Assembly (NCBI RefSeq): GCF_003664585.1
Contig: NZ_RCHI01000019.1
Coordinates: 1-64,000 of the forward strand
Source of the DNA: Paenirhodobacter hankyongi
GTDB taxonomy: Bacteria; Pseudomonadota; Alphaproteobacteria; Rhodobacterales; Rhodobacteraceae
DNA length: 64,000 bases
Reading direction: 5' to 3'
Below the pieces are notes generated by a model that worked only from the letters and a program-made list of their open reading frames with translations, was not told the origin of the DNA and did no database searches. The position numbers were made by a program, and so were the translations under genes. Shown in pieces: positions 1,357-11,685 of this stretch (position 1 is the first letter of the stretch; every line of letters starts with the position of its first letter).

Positions 1357-1650
1357 ATGAAAATTACTCTGACCCCGCAGTTGCGCCAGCAGGCACTCGT
1401 GCTCGAGCGTGTCGGCTCGGTCATGACGTGCAACGGTGTTGCGACCGATCTCGCGGCCTATACGGCCACGCCCGAAGCGCCGCACGACTGGATCGTCGGG
1501 CAGCCCGAGCAGGTGAGCGGCGAGTGGCATGTCACGATCGTGCTACCGCATGGCGCCGAGGCCCCCGAGGCGACCCGCTTCCCGGAGCCGATCACGGTGA
1601 CCGCGGACGGCCCCGTGACCCTGCCGCCGCACGATGCCCCCGCCGACTGA
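1357..1650 (+). CDS. conserved phage protein downstream of tail fibre
   Basis: A 97-residue protein starting at an ATG with a good ribosome binding site (AAGGAG eight bases upstream). The C-terminal half has the pattern VLPHGAEAP..TRFPEPITV..DGPVTLP, which I know from small proteins encoded directly after tail-fibre genes in many prophages. Their function is not established; a fibre-associated or assembly role is an inference from position. No signal peptide or membrane segment is present. A terminator follows 30 bases after the stop, so this is likely the last gene of the structural operon. Confidence 0.6.
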   Translation: MKITLTPQLRQQALVLERVGSVMTCNGVATDLAAYTATPEAPHDWIVGQPEQVSGEWHVTIVLPHGAEAPEATRFPEPITVTADGPVTLPPHDAPAD

Positions 1651-1680
1651 CTGGCGATCAAAACAACCCATGAAGATGCA

Positions 1681-1701
1681 CCCGCCACCGGCGGGTTTTT
1701 T
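1681..1701 (+). terminator. intrinsic terminator closing the tail operon
   Basis: A perfect CCCGCC/GGCGGG stem with a three-base ACC loop is followed by six T. It lies between the tail-fibre-associated gene and the lysis genes, so the lysis cassette probably has its own promoter or depends on antitermination. Confidence 0.75.
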
Positions 1702-1723
1702 GTTGCCGGAAAGGGGCAGGACA

Positions 1724-2410
1724 GTGACGACTGACAAACTCGACCAGATTGCGACGCGGGCCGGATGGGCCACGATCCCGGGGGCGATCTCGTTCCCGGC
1801 GTGGTGGCCGACGCTCGAGAGCGCCTCGACCTTCGCCTCGCAGCTGGTGCCGATCGTGGGCTTGCTGATCGCGGTGGTGAACCTCGCGCTGCTGATCCGC
1901 AAATGGCGCCGAGGCCGGGGCCGGGCCTTCTGCGCCGACGAGAGCGGCGCCGTGGGCCGGCGCACCGTGGCGGGGCTCGGTGCGGTGCTGGCGCTTGCCG
2001 CGGCGGTCATCACTCCTTTCGAGGGGCGCGAGCTACGCGCCTATCGCGACATCGTCGGCGTCTGGACGATCTGCGACGGCGACACGCAGGGCGTGCGGCC
2101 GGGGCAGGTGGCGACGCCGGCCGAATGCGACAGCCGTCTGGCAACCCGGGTGGCGCAGTTCGAGCGCGAGATCCGGCCGTGCCTGCCCGCCGAGCTGCCC
2201 GACCCGACGCGCGCCGCCTTCATCTCGGCCGCCTACAACATCGGCTCCGGCGCGTTCTGTGGCTCGAGCATGGCGCGGCGGGCCCGGGCGGGCGATCTGC
2301 GCGGCGCCTGCGATGCGCTGCGGCTGTGGAACCGGGCCGGCGGGCAGGTGGTGCGCGGCCTCGTGCGCCGGCGGGAGGCGGAGCGCGACCTGTGCCTGAG
2401 CGGGCTGTGA
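1724..2410 (+). CDS. holin-like domain fused to SAR-type GH24 endolysin
   Basis: GTG start with an AAGGGGCAGG ribosome binding site, placed after the terminator; 228 residues. Residues about 38-60 are a strong transmembrane helix (LVPIVGLLIAVVNLALLI) followed by a basic patch RKWRRGRGR, like a small holin. Residues about 76-98 are a second, Gly/Ala-rich weak helix of the signal-anchor-release type. Directly after it comes FEGRELRAYRDIVGVWT, with the lysozyme triad spacing E-x8-D-x5-T of GH24 (T4/P21) muramidases. An in-frame GTG at 1952 could start a separate SAR endolysin inside the longer product. Inferred role: degradation of murein in phage lysis. It overlaps the downstream spanin gene (GTGA). 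Confidence 0.8.
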   Translation: MTTDKLDQIATRAGWATIPGAISFPAWWPTLESASTFASQLVPIVGLLIAVVNLALLIRKWRRGRGRAFCADESGAVGRRTVAGLGAVLALAAAVITPFEGRELRAYRDIVGVWTICDGDTQGVRPGQVATPAECDSRLATRVAQFEREIRPCLPAELPDPTRAAFISAAYNIGSGAFCGSSMARRARAGDLRGACDALRLWNRAGGQVVRGLVRRREAERDLCLSGL

Positions 2411-2763
2411 GCCGGGCAGGGGGTACGCTGGCACTCTGCCTCGCACTTGGTGCCTGCGGCGCGCTGCCCGGTCTGCTGAGTGGCCCGAAGGTCGCCGCGA
2501 ACGGGCAGGCGGCCCGCACCGCGGCGCAGACGCTGGGCACCAGCACGCAGCGCGATCAGGCGATCCGCACCGCCACCGCCGGCCGCGACGTCGTGCAATC
2601 GGCCGACGCCAATGCCGTGCGCGCGGGCCGCGTCGAGCGCGTGGTCGTCGAGGGCAACAGCCCGCCCTGGCTGATCCTCGCCTTTGCTGTTGCGCTGCTG
2701 CTCGACAGCCCATTGCGCTGGCCCGAGCAGATCTGGCGCGCGGTCAGGGGGAGGCGGGCGTGA
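2407..2763 (+). CDS. candidate unimolecular spanin (lipoprotein with C-terminal membrane helix)
   Basis: GTG start overlapping the endolysin stop; 118 residues. The N-terminus is a lipoprotein signal with lipobox LGAC, so the mature protein should begin at a lipidated Cys. A polar middle (AANGQAARTAAQTLGT and on) is followed by a hydrophobic segment PPWLILAFAVALLL and a basic tail ending RAVRGRRA. Lipid anchor at one end and membrane helix at the other is the plan of phage T1 gp11 (u-spanin), which joins outer and inner membranes in the last step of lysis. The call rests on architecture and on position after the endolysin. Two decayed copies of this gene lie further right in the window. Confidence 0.6.
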   Translation: MSRAGGTLALCLALGACGALPGLLSGPKVAANGQAARTAAQTLGTSTQRDQAIRTATAGRDVVQSADANAVRAGRVERVVVEGNSPPWLILAFAVALLLDSPLRWPEQIWRAVRGRRA

Positions 2764-2766
2764 CGG

Positions 2767-3147
2767 TCACGCCGCGACGAGGTGATAGGGGCGCACAAGG
2801 CAATCCGCCGGGATGTGCCACTCGCTGCTCAACTTGTGGATCATGTCGAGGGTGAGTGCACGCTTGCGGTTCAGCACCTCGGACGCGCGCGGGCGAGAGC
2901 CGAACAGGGCCGCCAGATCGGCCTGGGTGCGGCCGGTCGCTTCCATGTGGGCCCGCAGGAAGTCGATCGGCTCCATCGGCTCGATCGGGAAGTTCCGGTC
3001 TTCATAGGCCTCGATCAGATCGGCGAGAACGTCGAAGCGGTCGGCGTCCGGAGTTCCCGGCGTCGGCTGGTTGTCGAAATATCGGGCGATCTCAGCGAGC
3101 GCCCAGTCGTGGTCCGCCTTGGTGCGGATCGGTCGGATGTCCATCAT
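2767..3147 (-). CDS. higA: HigA-type antitoxin (HTH_XRE)
   Basis: A 126-residue protein encoded second in a toxin-first operon; its start overlaps the toxin stop by one base. The C-terminal half is an XRE-type helix-turn-helix (TGRTQADLAALFGSRPRASEVLNRKRALTLDMI) preceded by the HigA-like N-terminal region with EAYEDRNFPIEP. It should bind and neutralise the HigB toxin and repress the operon by binding the two palindromes upstream of higB. Its 3' end abuts the phage spanin gene (stop at 2763), so the module was inserted just behind the lysis cassette. Confidence 0.85.
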   Translation of the reverse strand: MMDIRPIRTKADHDWALAEIARYFDNQPTPGTPDADRFDVLADLIEAYEDRNFPIEPMEPIDFLRAHMEATGRTQADLAALFGSRPRASEVLNRKRALTLDMIHKLSSEWHIPADCLVRPYHLVAA

Positions 3148-3443
3148 CAGATCGTCTCCGGGTTGATCTTGTCATAGTCCTTGTGGGTGCCGACGAACTT
3201 GATCAGCGCCCGGCGAAACGGGTAGGCGAAGTGGACGATCAGGCGATACTTGTTGCCCCCGATATCGAAGATGACGCGGTTGTCGCCAACGAAATCGACC
3301 GTGGTGCCAAACGCGGACTTCACATCGGCCGGGCCCGCCCAGTTCGCTTGAGATGCAATGGTATACCATGCCTTCAGCGGAGCTTCGGCGCGCGGCTCCC
3401 GTTCCCAGAAGGTCCGAAGCGTCGATTTTGCGATGATCTGCAT
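3147..3443 (-). CDS. higB: HigB-type mRNA interferase toxin
   Basis: A 98-residue protein with features of the HigB (RelE-superfamily) toxin family: an early basic helix, the core FGTTVDFVGDNRVIFDIGGNKYRLIVHFAY, then FVGTHKDYDKI. In this family the His-Lys-Asp-Tyr motif near the C-terminus belongs to the ribonuclease site that cuts mRNA on the ribosome. The gene precedes higA, the usual order for Hig systems. A promoter with two flanking palindromic operators lies directly upstream. Expected role: growth arrest when the antitoxin is lost, which stabilises the prophage or blocks other phages. Confidence 0.85.
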   Translation of the reverse strand: MQIIAKSTLRTFWEREPRAEAPLKAWYTIASQANWAGPADVKSAFGTTVDFVGDNRVIFDIGGNKYRLIVHFAYPFRRALIKFVGTHKDYDKINPETI

Positions 3444-3456
3444 CGTGCATCCATTG

Positions 3457-3521
3457 TTCCCGTATCGGGAATATCAGGCCGCCGTGAAGCGAAGTCAATA
3501 GCGGCGTTCCCAATTTGGGAT
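3457..3521 (-). promoter_or_regulatory. higBA promoter with two operator palindromes
   Basis: Read on the minus strand, TTGACT (3493-3498) and TGATAT (3471-3476) are spaced by 16 bases and fit a sigma-70 promoter. Operator O1, TTCCCGTATCGGGAA (3457-3471), is a perfect palindrome touching the -10 element. Operator O2, TTCCCAATTTGGGAT (3507-3521), lies just upstream of the -35. Both share the half-site TTCCC, so HigA or HigBA probably binds both and silences the promoter. Confidence 0.7.
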
Positions 3522-3587
3522 CTTTGTTTGCGGGAGGCCGCGCGATCGGTGCGTCCTGTGGCAGTCATGCAGAGGCGTCGGCGCGCG

Positions 3588-3819
3588 GGCGCCTTGCCTC
3601 GCACGCTCGGCCTGTAGCACTCTGCCCGGTCTGCTGAGCGGCCCGAAGGTTGCCGCGAACGGGCAGGCGGCGCGCACCAAGGCGCAGCCCCTCGGCACAA
3701 GAGAGCGCCAGCCCGCCCTGGCTGATCCTCGCCTTCGCCGTCGCGCTCCTCCTCGACAGCCCCTTGCGCTGGCCCGAGCAGATCTGGCGCGCGGTCCGGG
3801 GGAGGCGGGGAGGTCAATA
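3588..3819 (+). pseudogene. decayed second copy of the phage spanin gene
   Basis: Strong nucleotide similarity to the spanin gene at 2407-2763: CTGCCCGGTCTGCTGAG and the bases around it, and later CCGCCCTGGCTGATCCTCGCC up to the C-terminal CGCGCGGTC. The lipobox region is broken (the Cys codon region reads TGTAGC, giving a stop), and about 110 bp of the middle is deleted. It cannot make a spanin. Its presence on the far side of the HigBA module marks a duplication or serial insertion at this site. Bases between this copy and the next gene (3820-3898) hold nothing else I can name. Confidence 0.75.
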
Positions 3820-3898
3820 GGCATTAGCCATGAAGCCAATCTTCACTTGACGCGCCGTCGAATTGGGTGCGTCGTCCCTTGCCGAAGGGGGGTGACCC

Positions 3899-4183
3899 AT
3901 GAAACATTTGTTCATGATATTGGTCCTTTGTGTTTCTGCTCTTCTCTTTCCGGCTAACGCCCAGTCTGGGCAGCCCTTTCTGCCCCAATCTCTTCAGATT
4001 GAGATCGTCAAGCCGGATGCCGCGATCGATCTGTTAGGCCGGATCCAGAACCAGGAGCCGAAGGAAAAGGTCTTCAATGCAGCCTGCTGCAAAATCTGCC
4101 ACAAGGGCAAAGCCTGCGGGGATAGCTGTATCAGCAGATCATACACTTGCCACAAGGGGCCAGGGTGCGCCTGTGACGGCTGA
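3899..4183 (+). CDS. small secreted cysteine-rich protein
   Basis: A 94-residue protein with a clear Sec signal peptide (positive MKH, a run of L/I/V/F, likely cleavage after PANA at residue 21). The C-terminal 32 residues hold eight cysteines in the pattern CCKICxKGKACGDSC, then SYTCHKGPGCAC, a compact disulfide-rich or metal-binding fold. I recall related KACGDSCI proteins of unknown function in many proteobacteria. It converges on the nuclease gene with only 12 bases between the stop codons. The first half is lower in GC than the neighbours, suggesting recent acquisition. Expected location: periplasm or outside the cell. Confidence 0.7.
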   Translation: MKHLFMILVLCVSALLFPANAQSGQPFLPQSLQIEIVKPDAAIDLLGRIQNQEPKEKVFNAACCKICHKGKACGDSCISRSYTCHKGPGCACDG

Positions 4184-4195
4184 GATGCGCCACTG

Positions 4196-4657
4196 TCAGC
4201 GGCTGCGTCGCCAGTCCCAAGGCATTTCGAACTGACTGGCCCAGATGCCGCGCTTGGCCGATCGTGCCCGGTTCTCTGCGGCAACGTAGTCAAGAGAGTA
4301 ATGGCGATAGGCGACAGCCCAGCCATTCTCAACCATCCAGGCATTGAGGTTGGTTCCACGGGATCTGCAGATCGCCACAACACGTCCATAGCGATCGACG
4401 TCCCGAGGTTGGCAGGAAACAGGTGCTCGGCCGATCTGGTCTGCCAGGGCATTTGCGGCATCTGTTCCGCAGGCCCAGGGTTTTCCCGCGATGTAGCACC
4501 GCTGCCGCCCCTCGGGGCAGTCGATGCCATGCAGCCTAATGCGCTGGCCGTGAATATCGATCGTGTCGCCATCAATCACCGAGGCTGTGCCGCTGATATC
4601 GGCAGCCTGCACCGTGGTTGAAAAAAGGAAGGCGGAAATGAAAGGCAGGAATTTCAT
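4196..4657 (-). CDS. secreted staphylococcal-nuclease-like (thermonuclease) protein
   Basis: A 153-residue protein starting at MKFLPFISAF, a Sec signal peptide with cleavage near VQA/A. The nuclease core follows: VIDGDTIDIHGQRIRLHGID with the metal-binding Asp residues and the phosphate-binding Arg, then DCPE, DRYGRVVA with the second catalytic Arg, and the C-terminal WMVENGWAVAY and AKRGIWAS segments of the SNase fold. It should cleave DNA and RNA with Ca2+ in the periplasm or outside. Internal cysteines (residues 46-65 region) may form disulfides. The frame stays open further upstream, but the signal peptide fixes this start. Confidence 0.88.
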   Translation of the reverse strand: MKFLPFISAFLFSTTVQAADISGTASVIDGDTIDIHGQRIRLHGIDCPEGRQRCYIAGKPWACGTDAANALADQIGRAPVSCQPRDVDRYGRVVAICRSRGTNLNAWMVENGWAVAYRHYSLDYVAAENRARSAKRGIWASQFEMPWDWRRSR

Positions 4658-4728
4658 CGGAAATGGCCTTTGAAATGTTGGTTCTTGCGTTGAGAGCCGG
4701 CCTTCCCCTAGCTGGCCATCACTGAGCA

Positions 4729-5127
4729 TCATGCAGCGCCAACCAGTTCGCGCCGGGCGGCTGAGGCGAGGAAGGACGAACGGGTCATGTGGCGCGCCCG
4801 GGCGGTCTCGTCGATGGCGCGCAGGAGCCCGCGCTCGATCGAGATATTGACCCGGGCGAGAGCGGTGTCCGCCGGGATGTAGGGCACCGGCATCAGCACT
4901 GCGCCGGCGGCGAGTTCCTCGGCCACCTCCGGGCGCTTGCGGATGGTCTCGATCGACGCGGCCTCGACATCGGGTTGATCCTCGAACCAGAGATCGAGCG
5001 CCTCGGCAGTGGCCCGGGGGATATCGTCCCAACTGTCAGCGGCGGCAAAACAGCCGGGAAGATCCGGGAAGGTCAGGCCATAAGCACTGCCCTCGTCGTG
5101 ATGCACGAGCGCGGTATAGTAGCGCAT
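4729..5127 (-). CDS. hicB: HicB-type antitoxin with ribbon-helix-helix domain
   Basis: A 132-residue protein. The N-terminal 60 residues carry the partial RNase H-like HicB fold (YYTALVHHDEGSAYGLTFPDLPGC and LDLWFED). The C-terminal 40 residues (ARVNISIERGLLRAIDETA and following) look like a ribbon-helix-helix DNA-binding domain. It should bind HicA and repress the operon. It is the second gene of the pair, 45 bases after hicA. Confidence 0.88.
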   Translation of the reverse strand: MRYYTALVHHDEGSAYGLTFPDLPGCFAAADSWDDIPRATAEALDLWFEDQPDVEAASIETIRKRPEVAEELAAGAVLMPVPYIPADTALARVNISIERGLLRAIDETARARHMTRSSFLASAARRELVGAA

Positions 5128-5172
5128 CTTGTCCTCCTTGACGTGGATGCGGAGAGGCGATGGTGACGGGGC

Positions 5173-5361
5173 CTAGAGCAGCCCCGCCTGTCGGTAGATG
5201 CTCCTGACGGTGCCAAGCGGCAGGTCCTTCTTCGGGTGGGGCGGGATCACCATCCTGTCGCCCTTCCGGAGCTTGTGGTGATCGCCTTTGACGGAGACCA
5301 CCTCGAACCCTGCGTCTTTCAGAACCTTCAGGAGCTTTCGGGAATTGGTCTCGAACTCCAT
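5173..5361 (-). CDS. hicA: HicA-type mRNA interferase toxin
   Basis: A 62-residue protein starting at MEFETNSRKLL. I chose this ATG over one 36 bases upstream because a near-perfect GAAGGAGG ribosome binding site sits directly before it and the length matches the family. It has the double-stranded-RNA-binding-like HicA fold with the catalytic His in VKGDHHKLRKG and the typical PPHPKKDLPLGTVRSIYRQAGL ending. The product cleaves mRNA and is held in check by HicB. Confidence 0.9.
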   Translation of the reverse strand: MEFETNSRKLLKVLKDAGFEVVSVKGDHHKLRKGDRMVIPPHPKKDLPLGTVRSIYRQAGLL

Positions 5362-5382
5362 CGCCCCTCCTTCGTGGGTATT

Positions 5383-5410
5383 TATATACACACTCATTCC
5401 ATCGCATCAA
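5383..5410 (-). promoter_or_regulatory. hicAB promoter
   Basis: On the minus strand TTGATG (5405-5410) and TATATA (5383-5388) are separated by 16 bases and lie about 20 bases before the hicA ribosome binding site. The -10 sits inside the near-palindrome GTATATAAATAC, a plausible HicB operator. The block is AT-rich compared with its surroundings. Confidence 0.6.
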
Positions 5411-5566
5411 GGAGGGTGTGTAATTAAGTGTGTTTCCCTTGTCGCCGATCCCGGCGGCAGGGGCGGGCTGCGCCAACAGCCCGACCACGCGGTGACGTTT
5501 GCCCCGTTCCGCGCCGACCCGCCCGTGGGTTGATGGTCGCCTGCTCCCCGCGCGGGAGGGTGACAT

Positions 5567-6388
5567 ATGGAACGAATAGCGAACATGAAGCAAGTGAAAC
5601 CCGCGGCTCCGGTCGCCCCCTGGCTGGGCGGCAAGAAACATCTGCACCGCCGGATCATCGAACGGATCGAGGCAATCGACCACAAGACTTACATCGAGCC
5701 CTTCGTCGGGATGGGCGGTGTGTTCCTGCGTCGGCGGTTCCGGCCGCGGCTCGAGGTGGCGAACGACCTGAACGGCGAGATCGTGAACCTGTTCCGGGTG
5801 CTGCAACGGCACCATGCGCAGCTGCTGGAGGCGCTGCACTTCCAGCTGGTGAGCCGGAGCGAGTTCGAGCGCCTGCGCGCCACGCCACCCGAAGCGTTGA
5901 CCGACCTCGAGCGCGCGGCACGGTTCCTCTACCTGCAACGGCTCAGCTTTGGCGGAAAGGTCGCCGGCGTCTTCGGGGTCGATGCCGGGCGCGCGCGGTT
6001 CTCGGTCGAACATCTTGCGGCGGTGCTGGAGGCGGCCTGGCGCCGCCTCGACGGGGTGGTCTTCGAGAATTTGGACTGGGCCGAGCTGGTCCGGCGTTAT
6101 GATCGCCCTGGCGCGCTGTTCTACCTGGACCCGCCGTATTTCGGGGGCGAGAACGACTATGGCAAGGGGATGTTCGACCGCGGTCAGTTCGCCGAAATGG
6201 CCCGGCTGCTTGGCAGCATCGACGGCCCCTTCATCCTGTCCATCAACGACACGCCAGAGATCCGCGAGATCTTCGCCGGGTTCGAGATCGAAGAAGTCGC
6301 GCTGAGCTACTCGATCAGCGCGGCCGGCGCCACGGCTGCACGCGAGCTGCTGATCTCCAATCGGGCCCCGGCCGGGCTGCTGATTTGA
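5567..6388 (+). CDS. orphan DNA adenine methyltransferase (D12 class, Dam-like)
   Basis: A 273-residue protein with a ribosome binding site (GGGAGG) before the ATG. The N-terminus APWLGGKKHL followed by IEPFVGMGGVFLRR is the AdoMet-binding motif I region of D12-class N6-adenine methyltransferases. The catalytic motif IV is DPPYFGGENDYGKGMF at about residues 184-199. No restriction endonuclease is adjacent, so it is an orphan enzyme. On a prophage such enzymes protect phage DNA from host restriction or alter gene expression. The target is not readable from sequence; GATC or GANTC-like sites are only guesses. A hairpin follows the stop. Confidence 0.88.
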   Translation: MERIANMKQVKPAAPVAPWLGGKKHLHRRIIERIEAIDHKTYIEPFVGMGGVFLRRRFRPRLEVANDLNGEIVNLFRVLQRHHAQLLEALHFQLVSRSEFERLRATPPEALTDLERAARFLYLQRLSFGGKVAGVFGVDAGRARFSVEHLAAVLEAAWRRLDGVVFENLDWAELVRRYDRPGALFYLDPPYFGGENDYGKGMFDRGQFAEMARLLGSIDGPFILSINDTPEIREIFAGFEIEEVALSYSISAAGATAARELLISNRAPAGLLI

Positions 6389-6418: not shown

Positions 6419-6602
6419 GGCGGAGCGGGCGGGCGGATCGGCGGGGGATCTGACCGCCCGTTTGAGCCCCGCTCAGCCCCCGCCGGACGGTCAGGCCCGA
6501 CGCCGGGTTTCGCCGCGCCCGGCCCTGAGCCGACCTTCACCGAGTGAAGTGATGCTGCGGTGCAGCTTCATCAAAGCAGACATTGCCAATTGAGCCTAAT
6601 CG

Positions 6603-7427
6603 TCATCGCCCGCTCCTACTTCGACCATATTTCTGCGCTTGACTGTATTTCTCCAATGTTTCGGGATTTAGCTGAGTGAAATCCTCATCGACCCAAAATT
6701 TCGCAAAACTCTGGGGATTAGTGGTCCGCCTTCCGTAGACAGTCGGGACGCCATTGAATTTCACTCCAACAGCGTGGCCGAAGCCGCGTTGATCAAGCTT
6801 TACAAGTTGTGGATGACCTCCCGTCATGAAGGATTTTGAAGGGATGCCATTGACTAGATCACAGAGGGACCAAAAGCAGGTCCGAGCCACGTCGCCTTGA
6901 TCACCTTTGGCAATCCATTTTTGCCGGTCCTTGTTCGCGCGACCACCTAGGCCCGAACTATAGACATACGCCGACTTTTTGCTGTTCAACTCATTCTCAC
7001 CAATCTGGTTCACGCTCCAACTTGAATTCGCGCGCCCGGCATGATGCAAGCGAAACAGTTGAAAGTCTGAAGGCCCTTCGGCATCGCAGCGCGCGCCGTA
7101 TAGGATTTCAAGCTCACAAATCGGCCCCTTCAGAGGGGTAGCACAAGGCAATTCACAAAATTCTTCAGCCCGGCCTCGGGTCCCGGGCGAAGATTGGATC
7201 ACAGCACGCTGAATTTCTTTCAGGAGCTGCCGCAGGAAAGATTGGCCCCATTGGAGATCCCCTGAGAGGGCAAAAATTTCTGGGGTGCAAACGCTTTCAA
7301 AGACCTTCTTTTCTCGCAAAGACACTGCTTGACCAGTTTGAAGAGATGTCCCTTGGCTATCAGCCCCCAAGTAAAATGTCCTTTTGCCTGTGGCTGACAC
7401 CGAGAGCCATGCTGTGACGGTTGTCAT
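6603..7427 (-). CDS. proteasome/HslV-like Ntn hydrolase, third gene of the SIR2-HerA operon
   Basis: A 274-residue protein. It begins Met-Thr-Thr-Val, so removal of Met would expose an N-terminal Thr as in HslV. LGADSQGTS follows, with D23 at the place of proteasome Asp17, then REKKVF with K40/K41 at the place of Lys33, then EIFALSGDLQWGQSFLRQL, matching the strand-glycine-helix region of beta subunits, and SSGLGG (157-162) at the place of the Gly-Ser-Gly loop. I infer an Ntn-hydrolase fold with possible Thr-protease or amidase activity from this spacing alone. It is too long for plain HslV (about 175 residues), and the C-terminal 90 residues are unrecognised. It lies 39 bases after herA on the same strand with no visible promoter, so it is probably co-transcribed. 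The ribosome binding site is weak. Third-position GC is lower than in the backbone. Confidence 0.55.
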   Translation of the reverse strand: MTTVTAWLSVSATGKRTFYLGADSQGTSLQTGQAVSLREKKVFESVCTPEIFALSGDLQWGQSFLRQLLKEIQRAVIQSSPGTRGRAEEFCELPCATPLKGPICELEILYGARCDAEGPSDFQLFRLHHAGRANSSWSVNQIGENELNSKKSAYVYSSGLGGRANKDRQKWIAKGDQGDVARTCFWSLCDLVNGIPSKSFMTGGHPQLVKLDQRGFGHAVGVKFNGVPTVYGRRTTNPQSFAKFWVDEDFTQLNPETLEKYSQAQKYGRSRSGR

Positions 7428-7466
7428 ACTCGTGCGGCCTACTTTCAGAAGTGGAAGTCCAAGAGG

Positions 7467-9521
7467 CTATGCTTTCCAGTGCAAACTTGGATTCTGGGGG
7501 ACATACCAAAGGTCGCGAACCTGCGTGTCGTCGCTGTTGGGCGTAGGATCGGCATCCCTGACGCGGAAGGTGGTCGGAATCTTCACCGCGCTTCCGAAGA
7601 TCAGCGCGTGCTGCTTCGGTAGAGATGGCAAGCGCCTCAGAACTGTTTCCGAGATGAATGGCGTCATCTGCTTAATCTGCGAAAGATCGTCGGGGTTTTG
7701 GATGCGGTGAATGATGAAGTTGTTACACTGCGAGAGAACCGTCTTCGAGAGCTCGCTTGGCCGTTGTGAAGCCACAATCAAGAAAGCCCCGTATTTCCTG
7801 CCCTCTTTGGCAATCCGCTGGAAGGTTATGCCCGCGTCGATGGCAAAGCGGCTCGGGCGCTCTGAGATGTAGCGGTGCGCCTCTTCGAGGATCAGATGGA
7901 CAGGCATCTTGTTTCGGGGCGTCGCGCGGCGCATCCGGTCGAAGATCAGCCGTGCAACAACGGCAGAGGCTAGTTCGACGATCTCGTCCGACGCATCGTT
8001 TAGGTCGATGATGCAGATTTGACGGTCTTTCCGGTAGCTTGTGCCCTCCCGTGCAAGACCAAGGAGTCGATCAACGAAGTGCGTCGGCTCCCTGTCGTAA
8101 TCCTGCAAGCCTTCAACAGATGCCCGCAAAAACTCGAAATCTGGATTGTCAGAAACAGACTTCAATCGTGTAACCAGTTGCGAACAATATTCCCTTATCT
8201 GCTTGTTTCCGTTTGCTTCTTCATAAAATAGGGCAAGATCGAGTGCTGCTTGCAATCTCCCAAAGGAAAATGGTGTATTTCCGTAACTGGGAAGCACAGG
8301 TTCGTCCGTGACCTGATTTTGCAGGAGTGCCAACACAGCTTCGTAGTTTTCTGATGTGCTAGAATTTCTTCCGTCTTTGAACTGCCCAAAATCATTGTAC
8401 AAACCCGCTTTGATCGTGCCCCTACAAATCTCATCCGTGGAAAACGTATGAAGTAACGCGAGGATTCTCCCCTCTTTGCTTGGCACACTGGCATCATCAT
8501 TTAAAATAGATAGAATGATCTTTGCCAAAACGTGGTTTCGAACACCTTTAAGATCATCACTAGCTCCGTCAACGACATCCGCGACAGGCTCTTCCTGAAA
8601 AAGGGTTGTTAGCCCGAGTGCGGTTCTCAGCGCTGGCAGTTGTGTTTTTTCGCTAGCGCGCAACAACAAAGCCCACTCGTCAACGGTCATGAACCAGTGC
8701 GGCAGACGAAATCTGTCAACCAAATCTGCACCGATGAAACCTTCGTCCAGAACTTCAGCTTCAGCTTCTGAGCTCGTTGCTTTGAAGTAGCTCGCTTGAA
8801 TTTGCCAAGGCATGTCTTCAAATGCTTGTCGATACTCACCGTTGACATCAAATAGGACGAAAGAAGCACCAATTGCCCAAAACTCTTCTGCTCTATCAAA
8901 CACGGACTGAATAATAGAAGCTACAGTGCAAGATTTTCCGCTTCCGGTATTTCCAAGAACAGCGACATGCCCACCGAAAAGTGCGTCAAGCTGCGCCTTC
9001 ACAGGATAGTCCTTGAAAACCGCTGACGTGCCTATCTCGATCGTATGGGGAACCGTTCCCTCCTTTTGAGCCCCCTCAGCGTCGGTCTTTGTCTCACGAT
9101 CTGCTGGTTGCTCCACGTTGAAGATGCGGTCCAGGTCTTCATCACGCGCATAAAGGGCATCTGCATAAAGCGGCGGAAACGTCGAGACCCCAAATTTGAA
9201 AGAGCCTCCTTGGACCGGCATTGAGCCGACGGGAACCACATCGAGGAACTTTGCTGCCGTGGTTTTGTCCATCTCTGCTGCGTTGCCGTAGGCTGGCGAA
9301 AAATCCTTCTCTCGGAGCCCGATAACCTCCAAGACGACATACTCGGATTGGGTCGGCACCATCAGATACGATCCCAAGGTCGCGACGTAATGGACATCAT
9401 CGAAGCCAACGACTGTGAAGTTATCGCTCCCTCTATGCAGTTCGACGACTAGGCGATCCGCTGAAACGCTAACGATCTTGCCTATGGCACGGCTTGCATC
9501 ATCCCTCGCCATTTTCGCCAC
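7467..9521 (-). CDS. HerA-family AAA+ translocase/ATPase of a SIR2-HerA defence system
   Basis: A 684-residue protein from a GTG; an ATG at 9512 is an alternative start. Residues 1-110 form a HAS-barrel-like beta domain (IGKIVSVSADRLVVEL). Walker A is GNTGSGKSCT (190-199). Walker B is near HLILEEAHRYISE (about residue 560), followed by AKEGRKYGAFLIVASQRPSE with a sensor-type polar patch and an Arg-rich end, typical of the HerA/FtsK superfamily. It would form a hexamer that couples ATP hydrolysis to DNA or nucleic-acid sensing. Its start lies inside the SIR2 gene (23 bp overlap), so the two are translationally coupled. In the known SIR2-HerA (Nezha) system the ATPase forms a large complex with the NADase and controls it. 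Confidence 0.92.
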   Translation of the reverse strand: MAKMARDDASRAIGKIVSVSADRLVVELHRGSDNFTVVGFDDVHYVATLGSYLMVPTQSEYVVLEVIGLREKDFSPAYGNAAEMDKTTAAKFLDVVPVGSMPVQGGSFKFGVSTFPPLYADALYARDEDLDRIFNVEQPADRETKTDAEGAQKEGTVPHTIEIGTSAVFKDYPVKAQLDALFGGHVAVLGNTGSGKSCTVASIIQSVFDRAEEFWAIGASFVLFDVNGEYRQAFEDMPWQIQASYFKATSSEAEAEVLDEGFIGADLVDRFRLPHWFMTVDEWALLLRASEKTQLPALRTALGLTTLFQEEPVADVVDGASDDLKGVRNHVLAKIILSILNDDASVPSKEGRILALLHTFSTDEICRGTIKAGLYNDFGQFKDGRNSSTSENYEAVLALLQNQVTDEPVLPSYGNTPFSFGRLQAALDLALFYEEANGNKQIREYCSQLVTRLKSVSDNPDFEFLRASVEGLQDYDREPTHFVDRLLGLAREGTSYRKDRQICIIDLNDASDEIVELASAVVARLIFDRMRRATPRNKMPVHLILEEAHRYISERPSRFAIDAGITFQRIAKEGRKYGAFLIVASQRPSELSKTVLSQCNNFIIHRIQNPDDLSQIKQMTPFISETVLRRLPSLPKQHALIFGSAVKIPTTFRVRDADPTPNSDDTQVRDLWYVPQNPSLHWKA

Positions 9522-10788
9522 CCTGCTGCTTGGAGAGCAGCTTCTTGAAGACCTTTTCGATAGCCTGTTCTTCTTTCTGGTCAGTGCTCGTTGGCATCAA
9601 GTCTTGCACGATACTGTCGAAGTAGTGCGCCTTCTTGCCTGTCGCCTCGTCGCTGCCCCAGATGAAGGAAATCCTCGGGTCTCCTAGCGCTGCGAGTTCT
9701 TTAGTCACCGGATTGTTGGCGTCGTCAGGATTGAGGAAGGCGATCAGGCGGAAGCCCGGGAGGGTTAGTCCCTGAAAAATAATGTTGTTAATGTGCTCGT
9801 CGCCAAAGCTGAATCCCATCACGAAAAGGACACTTTGATCTTGAACGACCTGACGCTGAAACTCACGGAACATGTCCGAATAGGGCGAGCCAAAACTCGC
9901 GGTCTGCTTCGAGGGCGTCGGATAGATCATGACGCGATCCTTGGAAGGATCGGGCTTGTCAGCAGACTCCCGGATCGGGAAAAGACCTGTCTCCTCTTCC
10001 GTCCAGTTTACAGACCCATGGAGCTTGCAGAAATGCACGTATCCATCGACCGCCGCCCACCTTTTTGAGGAAATATCGAGCTGTTCAGCTAGGGCGCGGC
10101 GGTATGTGGAAGGGTTGAAACGGCGCTCAACCGTGCCCGCAAACCCGTTGGAATAGGGAATGCCGGATCGATCCATCGCCCTCTCGTTAAAGAGGTCGTA
10201 ATTTGTGGTGAAAACCCAAGGCGGCGCAAGGCCACGGGATCGGGTGGCCAGCGACTGATAAAAGCGCCGATACAGCGTCACGACTGCTTCGTCGCCGTTT
10301 GCAAAAGGTCCTTCAGTGCATTTCTGAAGGATGAACTTTTTCACGCCTGCGATGACGGCCTCGACGGTTCCGAGGGCACCTTGAAGATCCGCCTTACCGC
10401 TTCTCTTACAAAACTGCTGCGCCGTCATGAGGGCTTCCATCAACCGCTCCAGGTTTTTTCGAAAGTCTTCATGGGTTAGATCGATCCCCAGCTGATCGTT
10501 GAGGGTCATTATTTGTTCAGCTGTCACAAACACGCCGACGCCAGGCAGACCTGGAATTTCTTCAAGCGTTACCTGGAACTCTGCGGCAAGCGGCCCCATC
10601 GTCGGAATGCCAAGATCATTGCCTTCGTGCATGTAGGATGAGCAACCGGAGCCGATGAGAAAAGACAGGTTCTTGGAACCGAAGGCCTCTGCCAGATGCC
10701 GCCGGATAATTTCAGCGCGGTCATCATACCCTGCTTCAGGGGAGAGTTTTGCAAACTCGTCTCTGTTCCCTTTTCTAAAATTGATCAA
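9499..10788 (-). CDS. SIR2-family NADase effector of a SIR2-HerA defence system
   Basis: A 429-residue protein, first gene of the operon. The only sensible start is a TTG with GGAG seven bases upstream. The SIR2 fold is shown by FLIGSGCSS (glycine loop, 43-51), FTTNYD (193-198, catalytic Asn196) and KLHGSVNW (255-262, catalytic His257), then VLFVMGFSFGDEHINNII, the usual closing segment of defence SIR2 domains. In this family activation by infection leads to NAD+ hydrolysis and abortive infection. Residues 70-190 are a helical insertion of unknown role. The gene is lower in GC than the chromosome and sits in prophage cargo, so it probably protects the lysogen from competing phages. Confidence 0.92.
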   Translation of the reverse strand: MINFRKGNRDEFAKLSPEAGYDDRAEIIRRHLAEAFGSKNLSFLIGSGCSSYMHEGNDLGIPTMGPLAAEFQVTLEEIPGLPGVGVFVTAEQIMTLNDQLGIDLTHEDFRKNLERLMEALMTAQQFCKRSGKADLQGALGTVEAVIAGVKKFILQKCTEGPFANGDEAVVTLYRRFYQSLATRSRGLAPPWVFTTNYDLFNERAMDRSGIPYSNGFAGTVERRFNPSTYRRALAEQLDISSKRWAAVDGYVHFCKLHGSVNWTEEETGLFPIRESADKPDPSKDRVMIYPTPSKQTASFGSPYSDMFREFQRQVVQDQSVLFVMGFSFGDEHINNIIFQGLTLPGFRLIAFLNPDDANNPVTKELAALGDPRISFIWGSDEATGKKAHYFDSIVQDLMPTSTDQKEEQAIEKVFKKLLSKQQGGENGEG

Positions 10789-10904
10789 GCAACCACTCCA
10801 AGTAAATTTCGTCCTTGCTGTCTCGCCACACGGTAGCCCAGGAACTCAAATGTTGTAAGTCCGGTTTCGGCGGTTATTCCTCAATCATAGGTAGATGCAG
10901 CGAA

Positions 10905-10987
10905 TGGCCGCTCCCCGCCCTGGGCTGCCGGCGGGGCCTCACACCTCGACCGGCCGCTCTCCGCCCTTGGCCACCGGTGGGGCCTCA
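10905..10987. repeat. 37-bp imperfect direct repeat at the SRAP gene end
   Basis: Copy A (10905-10941) and copy B (10951-10987) share GGCCGCTC.CCGCCC and CGG.GGGGCCTCA with a few changes; the period is 46 bases. Copy B ends on the SRAP stop codon. Each copy contains an internal dyad (GGCCCCACC/GGTGGCC-like), so this may be a duplicated 3' terminator region. Confidence 0.6.
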
Positions 10988-11611
10988 GTCGCCGATCGCC
11001 TCAATCAGCTCAGGCCCGTCATCGCGCATCGAGAAAGGTCTGACAGGGTGGTGTTCGAGTCTGGCGTCGTCGCCAAGGCCTGCGCCATCGGAGCCGCCAA
11101 GCCAGGCTCCGCGCTCGTCGGCGTTCAAGATCACCGGCATCCGTTCGTGCAGACCCGCCATTGCATCGGTTGCAGCGCGGGTCATGATCGTGCAGGTCAA
11201 CAGGTCGTGCCAGCGACTTGCCAGCCCTGCAAGAAACAGGTTCTCCTCATTCCCGGCCGAACGGAAGAAGTGTGGCTGGCGGCGCCCCTTCGGTCCCGTC
11301 CATTCGTAAAACCCGCCCACCGGGATCAGGCAGCGCCCGTGGCGCCAGACCTGCCGGAAGGTCGGCTTCGTAGGCGCATCCTCGACCCGCGCGTTGAAGG
11401 TAGCCGCCTTCCAGTCCTTCGGGGCGTCACCGGAAAACCAGGATGGGATCAAGCCCCAGCGTGCCGTGAATGCCGTCAGCGGGTGCTTTGCAAGGATCAC
11501 AACTTCGTCCGTCGGCTTGACGTTGTAGCGCCGGGGGAACGGGGCGATCTTGATCTGCGACATCTCGACCTCAGTGTTCCGAAGGTTCGGATCGATGAAA
11601 CGCCCGCACAT
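10985..11611 (-). CDS. SRAP (HMCES/YedK) abasic-site DNA-protein crosslink protein
   Basis: A 208-residue protein. The start is set at MCGRF because SRAP proteins use Cys2, exposed after Met removal, to bond covalently to abasic sites in single-stranded DNA; a GGGGGAG ribosome binding site precedes it. Other family marks: RYNVKPTDEV, RWGLIPSWF, FNARVED (active-site Asn-Ala-Arg-x-Glu), CLIPVGGFYEW, and HERMPVIL with the catalytic His. It shields abasic sites in single-stranded DNA and is often plasmid- or phage-borne. Here it is the last cargo gene before the prophage edge, upstream of the SIR2 operon on the same strand and separated by about 200 bases. Confidence 0.92.
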   Translation of the reverse strand: MCGRFIDPNLRNTEVEMSQIKIAPFPRRYNVKPTDEVVILAKHPLTAFTARWGLIPSWFSGDAPKDWKAATFNARVEDAPTKPTFRQVWRHGRCLIPVGGFYEWTGPKGRRQPHFFRSAGNEENLFLAGLASRWHDLLTCTIMTRAATDAMAGLHERMPVILNADERGAWLGGSDGAGLGDDARLEHHPVRPFSMRDDGPELIEAIGD

Positions 11612-11685
11612 TTCAATGCTCCCCCTCTTCGTAATCAGCCGCAGGGCAGGCGGTGTGCATCGCGGCGCATGCATTGGACATTAGC

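Follow-up and report, generated by a model that had tools for sequence, protein, structure and literature searches.

A predicted proteasome-like Ntn hydrolase encoded with SIR2 and HerA in a transferable cassette of Paenirhodobacter hankyongi

The open reading frame (ORF) at positions 6603..7427, minus strand, of a 64,000-nucleotide stretch of Paenirhodobacter hankyongi DNA (contig NZ_RCHI01000019.1, positions 1 to 64,000; the whole stretch is referred to here as the window) encodes a 274-amino-acid (aa) protein that, judged from its predicted fold and its catalytic triad, is a proteasome-like N-terminal nucleophile (Ntn) hydrolase. Its gene is the last of three in a transferable cassette (6518..10908, minus strand), following genes for a SIR2-family protein and a HerA ATPase. 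We favor, by a small measure, the view that the Ntn protein is an accessory threonine hydrolase of the SIR2-HerA anti-phage system, with its partner, substrate, and activity all putative. A preliminary description of the ORF had pointed to HslV/proteasome-like catalytic positions; the SIR2-HerA operon, the mobile cassette, and three changed second-shell residues are newly seen here.

All the residues singled out in that description (T2, T3, D23, K40/K41, and SSGLGG at 157-162) are present in the translation. The protein begins MTTVTAW from an ATG start codon. Upstream of this ATG, the frame stays open for only 13 codons, up to the HerA stop codon, with no ATG, GTG, or TTG among them; hence, a propeptide is ruled out. 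Methionine aminopeptidase normally accepts Met-Thr, and removal of Met1 by this enzyme would expose Thr2. We found no meaningful match to the protein in Pfam, NCBIfam, PHROGs, or PADLOC, and PF00227 of Pfam was not matched at an E value of ≤10. Searches of PDB with single-sequence phmmer and with a 10-row profile gave no match, so sequence alone provides no tie to solved proteasomes. The Thr/Asp/Lys spacing pattern occurs in 1 of the 111 window ORFs of at least 150 aa, and when the protein is shuffled with Met-Thr retained, 12% of the shuffles carry an Asp and a Lys at about the noted distances. By itself, the pattern is weak evidence; conservation across homologues turns it into strong evidence.

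Conservation was counted in an 18-row alignment with identity down to 16%, outside which stands a homologue from an Arcobacter plasmid (L020). The only invariant columns were M1, T2, D23, S24, K41, G56, G159, Q207, and G232. The chance that all three noted sites fall among the 8 invariant non-Met columns, with either K40 or K41 allowed, is ~3e-5. Thr2, Asp23, Ser24, Lys41, and Gly56, each invariant in 18/18 rows, occupy the positions of proteasome Thr1, Asp17, Ser18, Lys33, and Gly47, respectively (20S numbering was taken from general knowledge of beta subunits and from PMC8665760). The Thr/Ser nucleophile, Asp17, Lys33, and Gly47 of the proteasome-like family all have counterparts in the protein (T2, D23, K41, and G56). 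The catalytic positions proposed earlier were thus borne out, except that of the two candidate lysines it is K41 that is invariant, and K40 is not the catalytic residue. Every homologue in the alignment keeps Thr2, Asp23, and the Lys, whereas L020 has Ser2 and a Glu in place of the Asp. By motif inspection, rather than by residue-level structural alignment, Gly159-Leu160-Gly161 was placed at Gly128-Ser129-Gly130 and Thr202-Gly203-Gly204 at Ser169-Gly170-Gly171. The first of these placements agrees with the loop suggested in the preliminary description, but its likeness to Gly-Ser-Gly is partial: the sequence is Gly-Leu-Gly here and Gly-Ser/Thr-Gly in most distant homologues.

AlphaFold2, run on the 18-row alignment, gave a confident model (predicted local distance difference test [pLDDT] score, 84.8; predicted template modeling [pTM] score, 0.88); a model made from the single sequence (pLDDT, 32) was meaningless and was not used. 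The top 50 PDB matches found with Foldseek were all 20S proteasome chains, with E values down to 2e-7. Comparison using VIA gave Z scores of 16.6-18.7 over 178-205 residues for 20S beta subunits and 16.8 for Anbu (5nyw), and in most rows model residue 2 lay on subunit residue 1 (301 in Mycobacterium tuberculosis numbering). By Foldseek and VIA, the predicted model has the alpha-beta-beta-alpha fold of proteasome beta subunits, that is, the fold of 20S beta, HslV, and Anbu, with which comparison had been proposed, and no other. It also has helices matching H1 and H3/H4, the elements through which proteasome subunits contact one another. Neither outcome that the preliminary description had set as refuting it, a confident model of another fold or homologues without the catalytic residues, was obtained with this model and the 18-row alignment. 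When the family profile was aligned with that of the HslV of this group using hhalign, D23, K41, and G56 paired with the HslV Asp, Lys, and Gly; the single-pair P value was 7.6e-4 and the probability was only 25%, and we would rank this pairing as supporting, not primary, evidence. The match to an Anbu profile was weak (P = 0.06). The earlier figure of about 90 extra C-terminal residues was overstated: 20S beta chains are 200-250 aa long, and ~200 residues of the protein can be aligned with them, the surplus being distributed among loops and a ~40-residue tail. We are nearly certain that the protein has a proteasome-like fold with intact triad positions.

The first gene of the cassette, encoding the SIR2-family protein (9499..10788, minus strand; 429 aa; PADLOC SIR2 PDLC04084, E = 3.6e-175; Pfam SIR2_2), overlaps the start of the HerA gene (7467..9521, minus strand; 684 aa; PADLOC HerA PDLC04102, E = 1.7e-285; Pfam DUF87), which is followed by the Ntn gene. 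SIR2 has the motifs GSGCS, TTNYD, and LHGSVNW, and HerA has a Walker A motif (GNTGSGKS) and a Walker-B-like motif (LILEEAHRY); with these two genes adjacent and their catalytic motifs present, the locus has the gene content of SIR2-HerA (Nezha). The end of HerA and the start of the Ntn gene are 39 nucleotides apart, and both this gap and the gene order are identical in 5/5 full-length copies. The cassette was delimited by DNA similarity to the four other copies. Similarity sets in at SIR2 or a little ahead of it and is lost at the Ntn gene or a little beyond it; the flanking genes differ and are unrelated between copies. We concluded that SIR2, HerA, and the Ntn gene are transferred together as a single cassette. 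Its G+C content is ~52%, against 67% in the window.

The Ntn protein has five close relatives, at 70-93% identity: those of a Roseovarius metagenome-assembled genome (L003), Ruegeria (L004), genome G305 (L005/L010), Paracoccus versutus plasmid pBEN (L015), and Oceanibium (L002), the last a broken copy. At L002 (97-1079), only the 3′ end of HerA is left and codon 218 of the Ntn gene is a TAG stop. Such decay is expected of an Ntn gene that persists only alongside its partners, although this is one instance, on a short contig. The five SIR2-HerA-linked Ntn proteins form one clade in the tree (support, 100/100), and the branch leading to it is long (2.19). In Novosphingobium, Niveispirillum, Haematobacter, Sinorhizobium, and Arthrobacter, HerA relatives of 45-55% identity are accompanied by SIR2 but by no Ntn gene; hence, the latter belongs to one SIR2-HerA clade as an accessory and is not a general SIR2-HerA component. 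In Haematobacter (L066, 6018-6911), a 3′-5′ exonuclease gene overlaps the end of HerA and occupies the place of the Ntn gene, from which SIR2-HerA may carry exchangeable third genes.

We compared the protein and its cassette with known systems. The likeness to 20S beta subunits (M. tuberculosis PrcB, Rhodococcus, archaeal, and eukaryotic beta5) lies in the fold, the Thr1/Asp17/Lys33/Gly47 positions, the Asp-Ser opening of the Asp17-Ser18-Arg19 motif, and an SGG-like turn, here TGG at 202-204. In contrast to these subunits, with which it is 11-17% identical, the Ntn protein has no propeptide, has Q, L, and S at the Arg19, Ser129, and Asp166 positions, and has added loops and a tail, and the cassette has no alpha-subunit gene. 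With HslV it shares the N-terminal Thr-Thr and, by profile alignment, the order of Asp, Lys, and Gly, but it has no PF00227 match, the adjoining gene is HerA rather than HslU, and the host genome encodes an HslV of its own. Anbu (5nyw) shares the fold predicted for the protein; the sequence match is far weaker, PF00227 is again unmatched, and an Anbu-like protein is encoded separately in the genome. The protein is therefore, as the preliminary description held, neither HslV nor Anbu, nor, given its second shell, a 20S beta subunit as such. Fuchs, Alva, and Lupas described 22 new proteasome-like families in 2021, e.g., DPH, RPC, and GPH, and reported neither a genomic context suggesting function nor a co-occurring AAA+ partner (PMC8665760). 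By published description, which was the sole basis of this comparison, those families likewise comprise divergent proteobacterial proteins with the same triad, no propeptide, and, in some, C-terminal extensions, whereas the Ntn gene has a fixed HerA-SIR2 operon. The SIR2-HerA system is built of a HerA hexamer bearing a SIR2 dodecamer (12+6 complex), and its nuclease/NADase activity gives protection (PMC12198126, PMC11559045). The cassette resembles it in its SIR2 and HerA genes, their order, and their motifs, but SIR2-HerA (Nezha) is described as a two-component system (PMC11559045, PMC12198126), and here a third, proteasome-like gene is added. The literature we searched, with most subscription papers and preprints lying outside it, contained no link between SIR2-HerA and the Ntn protein and nothing relevant joining HerA with an Ntn hydrolase, or a proteasome homolog or Ntn hydrolase with phage defense. 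Proteasomes go unmentioned in the two HerA/BREX surveys consulted.

In the mechanism that we propose, the Ntn protein would be made from the SIR2-HerA operon as a third, accessory component in one clade. Thr2 would be the nucleophile, activated by Lys41 and Asp23, with Gly56 providing the oxyanion hole, and the protein would act as a threonine peptidase with or downstream of the HerA-SIR2 complex, presumably in contact with HerA or SIR2. Candidate substrates are proteins of the phage or the host, or SIR2/HerA itself, and cleavage would set off or restrain depletion of nicotinamide adenine dinucleotide (NAD). Sequence cannot tell whether the Ntn protein would trigger, restrain, or supplement the effector. 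We consider it quite probable that the protein forms a functional unit with SIR2-HerA and fairly likely that it is an active hydrolase; that it is a peptidase acting in the defense response is possible, at a little under an even chance. A HerA-dependent protease, in which the HerA ring ATPase would have taken on a proteasome-like Ntn ring, seems quite unlikely; it would join, in one defense complex, SIR2 NAD depletion/nucleolysis to ATP-driven or infection-gated proteolysis.

Observations on both its partnership and its activity weigh against this role. Neither HerA nor SIR2 was near the remote Ntn homologues at any locus checked, so the ancestral function of the family was independent of SIR2-HerA. 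These standalone homologues sit in prophages, plasmids, and islands, among integrases, phage genes, and defense-type genes, and their neighbors vary (DUF3800, HEPN/Toprim, and HNH). The SIR2-HerA relatives without an Ntn gene presumably function all the same, and at L010 (5901-7958) codon 429 of HerA is an in-frame stop, with SIR2 and the Ntn ORF both intact. The varied neighbors of the standalone homologues, together with relatives that manage without the gene, would suit a hitchhiker, i.e., an independent defense or mobile-element gene fixed by chance beside one SIR2-HerA system and now co-travelling. However, its position and the 39-nucleotide gap are constant across five copies despite complete turnover of their flanks, the limits of the cassette are the SIR2 start and the Ntn end, and a long branch to the SIR2-HerA clade is expected from adaptation to a new partner. 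We regard hitchhiking as rather unlikely.

As to activity, proteasome subunits are active only after ring assembly. In the second shell of the SIR2-HerA clade, Arg19 is replaced by Gln25, Ser129 by Leu160, and Asp166 by Ser199, where nearly all other main-group homologues have Arg, Ser/Thr, and Asp; these residues characterize 20S beta but do not define the wider proteasome-like family. The kept triad with an altered second shell may mean a changed substrate, weak activity, or activity only within a complex, and the three changes may weaken peptidase activity, which is not assured. The ratio of nonsynonymous to synonymous substitution rates (dN/dS) of the Ntn gene is 0.16-0.25 between diverged copies, indicating purifying selection (it is 0.56 for the closest pair, the window and L015, with few changes). 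The ratio is lower, 0.02-0.10, for HerA and SIR2, so protein evolution is more rapid in the Ntn gene than in these partners, with change strongest near residues 50-150; this would fit a phage- or substrate-facing part or relaxed constraint. Faster evolution and the three altered positions could also be accommodated by a catalytically weak or dead proteasome-like scaffold that, like proteasome alpha subunits, only binds or regulates HerA/SIR2. This is very doubtful, as Thr2, Asp23, Lys41, and Gly56 are unaltered in all copies, which is unexpected after loss of catalysis. Another explanation is an Ntn hydrolase that is not a peptidase but a monomeric amidohydrolase or connectase-like protein ligase with a specific substrate. 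Connectase, a proteasome-like monomer working as a ligase (PMC8665760), is a precedent; Q25, L160, and S199 suggest changed chemistry or substrate, and the protein belongs to no named family in the four family databases. Given the predicted H1 and H3/H4 helices and proteasome subunits as the best structural matches, we judge this explanation unlikely. A chance resemblance to HslV in a protein of different fold might be argued from the shuffles and from the lack of a significant sequence match to PDB proteasomes, but with a confident model, Z scores of up to 18.7 to 20S beta, and invariant triad positions, it is extremely improbable.

Ntn homologues are rare (6/391 genomes in the order sample and 8/398 in the phylum sample). 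Remote relatives, at 16-29% identity, come from other alphaproteobacteria, Pseudomonas and Arcobacter plasmids, other proteobacterial genomes, and viral/prophage contigs; the Agrobacterium homologue had no match among phage records. We looked for a partner gene shared by the standalone homologues and found none. A DUF3800 gene lies divergently beside the L007 and L008 homologues, with a similar gene close to L018; a HEPN/Toprim protein is encoded upstream of the Arcobacter homologue and a DUF4351 protein downstream of that at L024. The Agrobacterium pAt1 homologue is ~6 kb from a multiubiquitin-ThiF-DUF6527 locus (L016, 14326-16586). L026 and L027 (genomes G1176 and G628) belong to a related but distinct proteasome-like group, ~17% identical to the window protein, that has the N-terminal MT, SDSR, and Lys motif in common with it; L026 has a large insertion following the Gly159 position. 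The L074 region was also considered as a possible super-integron, which was unsupported (one attC-like core motif, with 3 matches versus 5.4 expected).

Beside the cassette, the window carries genes for a phage lysozyme, HigB and a helix-turn-helix partner, a HicB-like antitoxin, and a D12 adenine methyltransferase (1634-6388), which place it in a prophage-like accessory region. A gene for an SOS-response-associated peptidase (SRAP; 10985-11674) lies just upstream of SIR2 on the same strand, outside the stretch shared by cassettes. HerA of the window and HerA of P. versutus pBEN are 93-99% identical in DNA at their ends and 57-62% identical near codons 300-400; codons about 150-450 are a replaced or hypervariable segment and possibly a specificity region.

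Together, these data place an uncharacterized proteasome-like protein alongside a ring ATPase and a NAD-consuming effector of known anti-phage role in one fixed operon, and because of that role the function of the Ntn protein is directly testable with phages. The cassette suggests that SIR2-HerA defense can carry its own protease-like part. If the Ntn protein does take part, HerA-based immunity would include a new element in the form of proteolysis by a relative of the proteasome.
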